A DNA stretch of 44,837 bases from Gemmatimonadota bacterium (lineage in GTDB: Bacteria > Gemmatimonadota > Gemmatimonadetes > Gemmatimonadales > Gemmatimonadaceae), in assembly GCA_003223425.1 (NCBI GenBank), contig QHVA01000018.1:1-44837 (forward strand), read 5' to 3'. Below the pieces are notes generated by a model. The model was not told where the DNA came from and ran no database searches. It saw only the letters and a list, made by a program, of their open reading frames with translations. A program made the position numbers and the translations under genes. Of this stretch, positions 8,131 through 25,236 are shown piece after piece (position 1 is the first letter of the stretch; every line of letters starts with the position of its first letter).

Positions 8131-8694
8131 ATGGCAATGCCTGCCACCCAGATCAGGCGTGGAATGGTCCTCGTGTTCGAGGGCGATCCATGTCGCGTAG
8201 TCGAGTTCCGCCACCACACGCCGGGCAATCTCCGCGCGATGGTTCAGGCGAAGCTCAAGAATCTTCGTACCGGCAGCAATTTCGAGCACCGCTTTCGTGC
8301 CGCCGACACGATCGAGAAGGCATCGATGGAGACGCACGATCTCGAGTTCATGTACCAGGGCGGCAGCACGTATCACTTCATGAACACGGAGAACTACGAT
8401 CAGCTCGAGATCGACGAAGAGGTTCTTGGTGACAACGCACAGTGGATGCAGCCCGGGATGAGGATCCAGGCCGAGTATTACGACGGAAGGGTGATCGGCA
8501 TCGATCTGCCGAACTCGCTCGTCCTGGAAGTGGTCGACACGGCGCCGGTTATGAAGACGGCGACCAAGACTGCTTCGACCAAGCCGGCGAAGCTGGAGAA
8601 CGGCGTGACTGTCAACGTTCCCGAGTTCGTGAGCACAGGCGAGAAGGTGCGCGTGAATCCGAATACGGGCGAGTACATGGACCGCGCGAAGTAA
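8131..8694 (+). CDS. efp: Elongation factor P
   Basis: A 187-residue translation factor that binds between the P and E sites and rescues ribosomes stalled at polyproline. The three beta-barrel domains are recognisable: the KOW-like N-domain (residues 1-65), the OB domain with METHDLEFMYQGGSTYHFM, and the C-terminal domain ending GEKVRVNPNTGEYMDRAK. The start at 8131 gives the family N-terminus (MAMPATQIRRGMVLV); the frame is open further upstream but without family sequence. The tip loop reads HHTPGNLRAM, so the position that carries the modified Lys or Arg in well-studied EF-Ps is Asn33. No modification gene (epmA, earP, ymfI-like) is adjacent. The tRNA array follows. Confidence 0.96.
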   Translation: MAMPATQIRRGMVLVFEGDPCRVVEFRHHTPGNLRAMVQAKLKNLRTGSNFEHRFRAADTIEKASMETHDLEFMYQGGSTYHFMNTENYDQLEIDEEVLGDNAQWMQPGMRIQAEYYDGRVIGIDLPNSLVLEVVDTAPVMKTATKTASTKPAKLENGVTVNVPEFVSTGEKVRVNPNTGEYMDRAK

Positions 8695-8774: not shown

Positions 8775-8848
8775 GTGGCTGTAGCTCAATTGGTTAGAGC
8801 ACCGGACTGTGGCTCCGGGGGTTGCGGGTTCAATTCCCGTCAGCCACC
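8775..8848 (+). tRNA. tRNA-His (GTG)
   Basis: Complete cloverleaf: acceptor stem GTGGCTG/CAGCCAC, anticodon stem CCGGA/TCCGG with loop CTGTGGC, and a TTCAATT T-loop. A G at 8774 opposite C73 (8848) supplies the G-1 needed for histidine identity. No CCA is encoded. First gene of an eight-tRNA array. Confidence 0.96.
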
Positions 8849-8950
8849 CATTTAGTAGAAATGTGAATGCCACACGGAGCCGAGTTGTCCGCAGTTCGCG
8901 GTGATTTGCAGTTCGTGTTTGTTGTGAAGTCGGAGTGATTCTGCCGGATT

Positions 8951-9023
8951 AGGTCCGTAGCTCAATTGGTAGAGCACCGGTCTCCAAAACCGGCGGTTGG
9001 GGGTTCGATTCCCTCCGGGCCTG
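8951..9023 (+). tRNA. tRNA-Trp (CCA)
   Basis: Acceptor stem AGGTCCG/CGGGCCT, anticodon stem CCGGT/ACCGG with loop CTCCAAA (anticodon CCA), T-arm GGGGG-TTCGATT-CCCTC, discriminator G. CCA tail not encoded. Confidence 0.96.
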
Positions 9024-9081
9024 TGCGAAAAAATTGATCGCGACAACTGCGGCTCGCCCGTGGTGAAGGTCGTGTGGTTGC

Positions 9082-9154
9082 GGCGCTATCGTCTAGGGGA
9101 CTAGGACGGGGCCCTCTCAAGGCCCAAACACGGGTTCGAATCCCGTTAGCGCTA
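9082..9154 (+). tRNA. tRNA-Glu (CTC)
   Basis: Acceptor GGCGCTA pairs with TAGCGCT (a G-U pair at 1:72), followed by the Glu-typical TCGTCTA D-arm, anticodon stem GGGCC/GGCCC with loop CTCTCAA (anticodon CTC), T-arm ACGGG-TTCGAAT-CCCGT, discriminator A. It complements the Glu(TTC) gene just downstream. Confidence 0.94.
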
Positions 9155-9187
9155 TCAGATGGATGAGGGATGACAAGCGCATCCGAT

Positions 9188-9259
9188 GGCCCCATCGTCT
9201 ATCGGTTAGGACGGCACCCTTTCACGGTGCAGAGAGGGGTTCGATTCCCCTTGGGGCTA
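9188..9259 (+). tRNA. tRNA-Glu (TTC)
   Basis: Acceptor GGCCCCA/TGGGGCT with the same 1:72 G-U pair as the preceding Glu gene, TCGTCTA D-arm, anticodon stem GCACC/GGTGC with loop CTTTCAC (anticodon TTC), T-arm AGGGG-TTCGATT-CCCCT, discriminator A. Confidence 0.95.
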
Positions 9260-9343
9260 TTGAGACGAGCTGACTGACAACCAGCTCCGGATGGAGGAAG
9301 GTGCGTAGTGAGGAAGGGGTTTCCGACCCTGACTCCCGAAGTT

Positions 9344-9418
9344 GGGGCCGTAGCTCAGTTTGGTTAGAGCACTCGACTGTCACTCGAGAGGTCGCGGGTT
9401 CGAGCCCCGTCGGCCCCG
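9344..9418 (+). tRNA. tRNA-Asp (GTC)
   Basis: Acceptor GGGGCCG/CGGCCCC, anticodon stem CTCGA/TCGAG with loop CTGTCAC (anticodon GTC), T-loop TTCGAGC, discriminator G, which is an Asp identity element. Confidence 0.96.
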
Positions 9419-9481
9419 TTGATTTTTGAAGCTTCGCCGTTTTCTGCAGCGTTTCGCGCGGCGAAGAGTGAAGGAGAAGTT

Positions 9482-9563
9482 GCCCTGGTGGTGAAATTGG
9501 TAGACACGCCATCTTGAGGGGGTGGTGCCGTAAGGCATAGCGGTTCGAGTCCGCTCCAGGGCA
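9482..9563 (+). tRNA. tRNA-Leu (GAG)
   Basis: A class II tRNA of 82 nt: acceptor GCCCTGG/CCAGGGC, anticodon stem CCATC/GGTGG with loop TTGAGGG (anticodon GAG), a long variable arm (TGCCGTAAGGCA), T-arm with TTCGAGT, discriminator A as expected for leucine. Confidence 0.95.
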
Positions 9564-9568
9564 TCGCG

Positions 9569-9640
9569 GCCACAGTAGCTCAGGGGTAGAGCACCCGATT
9601 CGTAATCGGGCGGTCGTGAGTTCAATTCTCACCTGTGGCT
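9569..9640 (+). tRNA. tRNA-Thr (CGT)
   Basis: Acceptor GCCACAG/CTGTGGC, anticodon stem CCCGA/TCGGG with loop TTCGTAA (anticodon CGT), T-loop TTCAATT, discriminator T. It begins only five bases after tRNA-Leu, so the two must be processed from one transcript. Confidence 0.95.
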
Positions 9641-9663
9641 CTCGATCGCTCTGAAGTGACCTC

Positions 9664-9736
<73 letters not shown>

Positions 9737-25162: not shown

Positions 25163-25236
25163 CGGGACGTGGCGCAGCCCGGTAGCGCACCTGAATGGGG
25201 TTCAGGGGGTCGCGGGTTCAAATCCCGCCGTCCCGA
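25163..25236 (+). tRNA. tRNA-Pro (GGG)
   Basis: Acceptor CGGGACG/CGTCCCG, anticodon stem CCTGA/TCAGG with loop ATGGGGT (anticodon GGG), T-arm GCGGG-TTCAAAT-CCCGC, discriminator A. Isolated from the main array. The accessory patch that follows on its 3' side makes it a candidate integration target. Confidence 0.95.

Follow-up and report, generated by a model that had tools for sequence, protein, structure and literature searches.

Can an elongation factor P (EF-P) work when the tip of its β3-β4 loop carries neither Lys nor Arg, and does it then need a modification of another kind? The question is raised by the efp gene in a 44,837-nucleotide stretch of DNA (hereafter, the window) from a soil bacterium of the family Gemmatimonadaceae, the draft genome of which comprises 2.52 Mb in 247 contigs and is 86% complete. 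The closest named relatives are also Gemmatimonadaceae, with EF-P identities of up to 95%. A sequence-only reading had placed Asn, followed by Leu-Arg, at the tip and had offered three options, namely that the protein works unmodified, that it uses the Arg two positions on or that it carries a new modification. The case is a telling one, since an EF-P with neither Lys nor Arg at its tip has become fixed throughout a family as its sole EF-P: activity of the unmodified protein would mean that a suitable loop makes modification dispensable, whereas inactivity would point to a modification yet to be discovered.

A three-domain EF-P with asparagine at its tip

The efp gene (8137..8694, + strand) is an uninterrupted frame of 185 codons plus a stop, assigned to EF-P by Pfam and by TIGR00038; an alternative in-frame ATG at 8131 gives a protein of 187 residues. 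The Pfam domains EFP_N, EFP (OB) and Elong-fact-P_C all lie within this one ∼185-residue protein, with scores of 76.4, 65.2 and 75.4 bits, respectively, each above its cut-off, and the NCBIfam model TIGR00038 scores 217 bits (cut-off 185.8). Solved EF-P structures took the top ranks in a Foldseek search with the AlphaFold model of the protein (mean pLDDT 88.7). In the model, residues 17 to 27 and 35 to 42 form strands, joined by a β3-β4 loop of seven residues (28 to 34), from which a single tip residue, the central Asn31, protrudes.

The DNA at 8215-8241 reads CAC ACG CCG GGC AAT CTC CGC GCG ATG (HTPGNLRAM). As delimited by the model strands and by a gap-free alignment, the tip loop is T28-P29-G30-N31-L32-R33-A34 (TPGNLRA; 8218..8238, + strand). 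It aligns without gaps to KPGKGQA of Escherichia coli EF-P (6enj/6enu; phmmer against solved structures), which puts Asn31 (codon AAT, 8227..8229, + strand) in the place of Lys34 and Arg33 (codon CGC, 8233..8235, + strand), two residues beyond the tip, at the position of Gln36. The sequence-only reading had numbered the tip Asn33, which holds from the ATG at 8131; Asn31 is counted from the ATG at 8137. In 20 Asn-tip (N-type) proteins that are 49 to 89% identical to the window EF-P, T28 to A34 form an unbroken invariant run, with Asn31 and Arg33 fixed together, and His26 is likewise invariant, giving the motif H-x-TPGNLRA. All seven loop codons vary synonymously (for Asn, AAC in 125 and AAT in 41 of 166 codon rows, which include some contigs reached twice) while the amino acids stay constant, indicating purifying selection and not recent copying.

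The description of the tip as Asn followed by Leu-Arg is thus confirmed by the DNA, by the gap-free alignment over Lys34 and by 48 of 48 genomes of the family (see below). That no Lys or Arg occupies the true tip was borne out by the alignment to E. coli EF-P and by the tip readings, and that the genome holds no second canonical EF-P by searches of it (86% complete) with two EF-P domain models, neither of which found one. As an EF-P, the window protein is ordinary; it belongs to a minor tip class already in print and represents the standard state in Gemmatimonadaceae; as far as could be seen in the literature, the class is uncharacterized.

Just downstream of efp lie eight tRNA genes (His, Trp, Glu, Glu, Asp, Leu, Thr and Gly; 8775..9736, + strand). 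A tRNA cluster starting with His-Trp, usually followed by Glu-Glu-Asp-Leu-Thr, comes after efp in all 20 Gemmatimonadaceae loci scanned; in a further 16 loci, efp had no such cluster next to it.

Distribution and descent of the asparagine tip

A search of 150 Gemmatimonadota genomes with EFP_N gave a match in 142, and the tips of 150 distinct EF-Ps were read from 151 matches (one genome, G052, was read twice and counted once). The loop was TPGNLRA in 86 of these EF-Ps, KPGKGGA in 58, KPGKGSA in three, KPGKGPA in two and KPGKGNT in one. By genome, 79 of the 142 hold only an Asn-tip EF-P, including the single-contig genomes G019, G039, G074, G129 and others; 55 hold only Lys-tip EF-P, among them one from family f5 with the KPGKGPA loop; seven hold both types; and one (G051) has KPGKGPA in an N-type-like body. 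The window's own family (f1) was Asn-only in 48 of 48 genomes, with no second EF-P after one false match had been dropped. Family f2 (35 genomes) comprised 25 Asn-only genomes, six with both types and four Lys-only; one of its Asn-only genomes (G013) is so counted with its second EFP_N match left out of the tip tally. Both genomes of f3 had Asn, as did four of five in f4, the fifth having KPGKGPA; a wider search of f4 matched 11 of 12 genomes, nine with Asn and two with KPGKGPA. TPGNLRA was also found in 80 of 80 named loci, almost all from Gemmatimonadota, in a search seeded with the window's own protein. Matches unfit for an EF-P tip were dropped, namely FPAQLSG in L171 of G080 and, from the 80 named loci, a further twelve (nine FPAQLSG, two LPAQLSG and one APAQGAG). 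Read from their pattern, the xPAQLSG matches are ABC-transporter motifs; the ABC ATPase encoded in the window carries FPTQLSGGEQQR. Eight genomes that are 91 to 98% complete gave no EF-P match (G016, G137, G105, G112, G123, G124, G060 and G093); these cases, of which six fall in f1, are probably assembly gaps. A scan of viral contigs for N-type relatives returned eight pattern matches and no relatives.

In a maximum-likelihood tree of 72 EF-Ps, including ten outgroups from plasmid-collection records, the 39 N-type rows formed one side of a branch with support of 100/99, present in 100% of bootstrap trees. Two f4 proteins with KPGKGPA (L158 of G051 and L183 of G155) branch just outside the N clade and join the N-type proteins with support of 99/95. 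The Lys-type Gemmatimonadota EF-Ps group with Lys-type proteins of Bacillota and Actinomycetota, and the root region is unsure because two long outgroup branches met there. Within the sampled tree, the N-type tip appears to have arisen once.

In f4, both loop types occur in one gene order, M48 peptidase–YegS-like kinase (DAGK)–efp–uvrA, carried by the KPGKGPA loci L183 and L188 and by the Asn-tip loci L157 (in full) and L186 and L192 (in part). The presence of both tips at the same locus indicates that the tip changed in place, probably from a Lys tip to an Asn tip. A published EF-P tree puts Asn after Lys and Arg (PMC6544042). The proteins of L158/L188 (G051) and L183 (G155) combine N-type-like bodies with the tip loop of Corynebacterium glutamicum EF-P (KPGKGPA in the PDB 6s8z sequence) at the locus of their Asn-tip relatives.

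Six of the seven genomes with both types belong to f2 and the seventh, G134, to f5. TPGNLRA is unchanged in all seven, and the six f2 genomes are a natural setting in which to ask if the two proteins have different jobs; together with the KPGKGPA/TPGNLRA swap at one locus in f4, the both-type genomes provide natural controls. One genome, G142, has three EF-Ps (L152, L153 and L154), two with Lys tips and one with an Asn tip. G134 (L017 and L163) has its own Lys-type EF-P plus an N-type protein nested among those of f2, a placement that suggests transfer or binning contamination. Acidobacteriota EF-Ps may also read TPGNLRAF; in that case the clade would extend beyond Gemmatimonadota, and what looks like one origin inside the phylum may be a transfer.

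A proposed encoded tip and its alternatives

The explanation that we favor, with a probability of roughly 0.57, is that the window EF-P works unmodified with a genetically encoded Asn-Leu-Arg tip. The N-type protein would be the cell's working EF-P, and its tip side chain would not be enzymatically lengthened. Instead, the Pro and the bulky Leu would lend stiffness to an encoded and fixed Pro-Gly-Asn-Leu-Arg loop, which would hold its Asn against the end of the tRNA; the positive charge otherwise provided by Lys34 would come from the Arg at E. coli position 36. The design would have arisen once in the sampled tree by an in-place change of a Lys-tip EF-P with a KPGKGPA loop. Activity and the unmodified state are our inferences, as are the direction in which the loops were exchanged and what Asn, Leu and Arg each do. 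Fixation of the tip across a whole family makes it probable that the usual modification is not needed for function, and the 79 of 142 genomes with N-type EF-P only, the invariance of TPGNLRA even beside a Lys-tip EF-P, and the single N clade with its KPGKGPA neighbors and same-locus exchange all count in favor of an unmodified tip. The reported findings that unmodified E. coli EF-P has only about half activity and that its K34N mutant is inactive (PMC6544042) count against it.

The sequence-only reading had proposed a genome search for EarP and EpmA homologs, and neither was found. A profile search for EarP gave no match in 150 Gemmatimonadota genomes; a Neisseria record served as its positive control (1.9e-113) because the 14 stock control genomes lack EarP, as does a Paraburkholderia plasmid. 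The EpmA model (TIGR00462) scored above cut-off in none of the 150 genomes and in two of the 14 control genomes; its lower-scoring matches, present in all 150 genomes, were taken to be class II synthetases, LysRS among them. With these controls, an EarP or EpmA pathway was rejected. YmfI is a member of the large FabG-like reductase family. A comparison of neighboring genes at 125 loci (flanks of up to 3 kb, shorter at contig ends) revealed no protein family common to the N-type efp loci of f1, f2/f3 and f4 besides efp itself and other-frame shadows. Recurrent f1 neighbors, such as a GDSL hydrolase and an ABC transporter, do not extend to f2/f3 or f4. A modifier gene adjoining efp within these flanks was thus rejected, and the lack of EarP and EpmA matches together with that of a common neighbor adds to the case for an unmodified tip.

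The same observations bear on a new modification, in which an enzyme would lengthen Asn31 (by N-glycosylation or β-hydroxylation, for example) or the Arg two positions on, with H-x-TPGNLRA doubling as its recognition site. We consider this unlikely. No gene travels with N-type efp in the flanks, although a distant gene would escape such a comparison, and a new enzyme is not required for the in-place exchange with KPGKGPA, loops of this type being reported to function without modification. Nevertheless, the invariance of T28 to A34 and of His26 would suit an enzyme target too, the known enzymes EarP and EpmA were not found, and more than 50% of bacteria are reported to lack a known EF-P modification enzyme, with undiscovered strategies expected (PMC6544042), so that an as yet undescribed enzyme has always to be reckoned with. 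In the window EF-P, Thr replaces the first Lys of the KPGKG loop, leaving only Asn and Arg as likely targets, and that either Asn31 or Arg33 is the target of an undescribed EF-P-modifying enzyme seems quite improbable to us. If true, bacterial EF-P would be activated by a fourth chemistry, and a modified Asn would provide the first example involving an amide side chain.

Demand for EF-P appears to persist in the Asn-tip genomes. The ValRS of the window's genome retains PPP (MPPPNVT), and the tRNA-Pro(GGG) gene of the window (25163..25236, + strand) has the EF-P recognition element in its D-arm (25172-25188), with a 4-bp all-G/C stem (GCGC/GCGC) and a nine-base loop, AGCCCGGTA; EF-P recognition is reported to require a D-loop of 9 nt and a D-stem of G/C pairs in tRNA-Pro (PMC4890201). 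PPP motifs were counted in proteins predicted by a simple codon-model caller from samples of 45 to 100 kb of each genome and compared with an expectation from shuffled proteins. Observed/expected counts were 65/44.2 in Asn-only genomes (nine plus the window) and 60/34.6 in six Lys-only genomes (p = 0.37), a comparison of small counts from a crude caller between sets that represent different families. Without the Pro-rich G070, the Lys-only value was 37/23.4 (p = 0.76), and three both-type genomes gave 26/15.3 (p = 0.55). The ratio in the Asn-only samples, 1.47 compared to 1.73, is slightly lower, which counts against an unmodified tip but is not significant; thus, there is no sign of PPP avoidance in Asn-only genomes. 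The persistence of demand in ValRS, PPP ratios and the tRNA-Pro D-arm argues for the unmodified tip.

It also bears on the possibility that N-type EF-P has little or no activity on polyproline and acts instead at other stalls or in forming the first peptide bond, with ABCF or YebC proteins covering polyproline. We regard this as rather unlikely, since 79 of 142 genomes hold only N-type EF-P and yet PPP is not significantly depleted, ValRS keeps its PPP and tRNA-Pro keeps the EF-P D-arm. What speaks for it is that seven of 142 genomes hold a Lys-tip protein besides the N-type one, as if the jobs were divided, and that the K34N substitution is reported to make E. coli EF-P inactive (PMC6544042). 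The latter indicates that Asn alone is insufficient; that mutant, however, kept Gly35 and Gln36 and did not have Leu-Arg.

A deoxyhypusine synthase (DHS)-like enzyme has been suggested in print as a modifier of Lys- and Asn-tip EF-Ps, such proteins having been noted in some prokaryotes with either tip (PMC6544042). DHS-like genes were found in 136 of the 150 genomes, and by tip in 76 of 79 Asn-only, 46 of 55 Lys-only and seven of seven both-type genomes as well as in G051. Their frequency with either tip shows no specific link to the tip, and no match was obtained in the Asn-only genome G040 (99% complete) or in the window's own genome (86% complete). Moreover, established DHS chemistry requires the Lys amine, which Asn lacks. 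DHS was therefore rejected as the tip modifier, and we hold a role for it to be very improbable. The DHS-like proteins of Gemmatimonadota (L173 to L178) fall into score classes of about 1e-84 or better, 1e-68 and 1e-38.

Finally, the likelihood of an artefact, be it a sequencing error, chance, a frameshift or a decayed second EF-P copy, is practically negligible: nothing but the draft assembly (247 contigs) would suggest one, and an artefact is refuted by the same seven residues in 48 of 48 family genomes, the frame without in-frame stops, domain scores above cut-off, synonymous variation at the seven codons and the finding of a single EF-P in the genome. The three options originally offered for the tip were a fair list, and the evidence leans, short of proof, to the first, an unmodified tip.

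Comparison with known EF-Ps

The EF-Ps of E. coli (EpmA type) and Pseudomonas aeruginosa (EarP type) share the three-domain fold of the window EF-P (6enj_w, TM 0.88; 3oyy_A, TM 0.77), and the E. coli loop has the same length. Unlike the window protein, they have Lys or Arg tips, each modified by its own enzyme, and the phylum sample yielded neither EpmA nor EarP. The window EF-P therefore belongs neither with the lysine type, as it has Asn at position 34 and EpmA was above cut-off in none of the 150 genomes, nor with the arginine (EarP) type, which has an Arg tip and lacks Pro two residues upstream of it, as its Asn tip comes with Pro29 and EarP was found in none of the 150.

Two known systems are described as working with an unmodified tip, as proposed for the window EF-P. 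The first is EfpL (YeiP), an EF-P paralog, the tip Arg of which is reported to be unmodified by mass spectrometry (PMC11611912). EfpL has a longer loop with an Arg tip, whereas the window EF-P has a seven-residue loop with Asn, and the latter scores 143 bits against the EfpL model NF003392, well below the cut-off of 216. The second is C. glutamicum EF-P (6s8z), with a comparable Pro-Gly-X tip that is presumed to be rigid and to need no modification for activity; the same source, citing actinobacterial work, states that stiffer loops "functionalize the protein without modification" and lists Asn among EF-P tip residues (PMC11611912). C. glutamicum EF-P keeps the tip Lys; in the window EF-P the tip is Asn, and Leu-Arg replaces the Gly-Pro that comes after it.

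The closest match is the group of published Asn-tip EF-Ps, which made up 2.23% of 1166 EF-Ps, 100% of them with Pro32 (Volkwein et al. 2019, PMC6544042); the window EF-P shares both Asn at 34 and Pro at 32. No assay of a native Asn-tip EF-P was found in the literature searched, a body of text that mostly excludes subscription papers; a text search for the loop TPGNLRA gave no match, and none of the papers listed for PGKGP was about EF-P. As far as its accessible text goes, the published account of the Asn tip consists of the count and the E. coli K34N mutant. To these, the present analysis adds an invariant motif, a single clade of N-type proteins, KPGKGPA neighbors with an in-place exchange of the two loops, seven genomes with both types, and a lack of EarP and EpmA matches in searches backed by positive controls.
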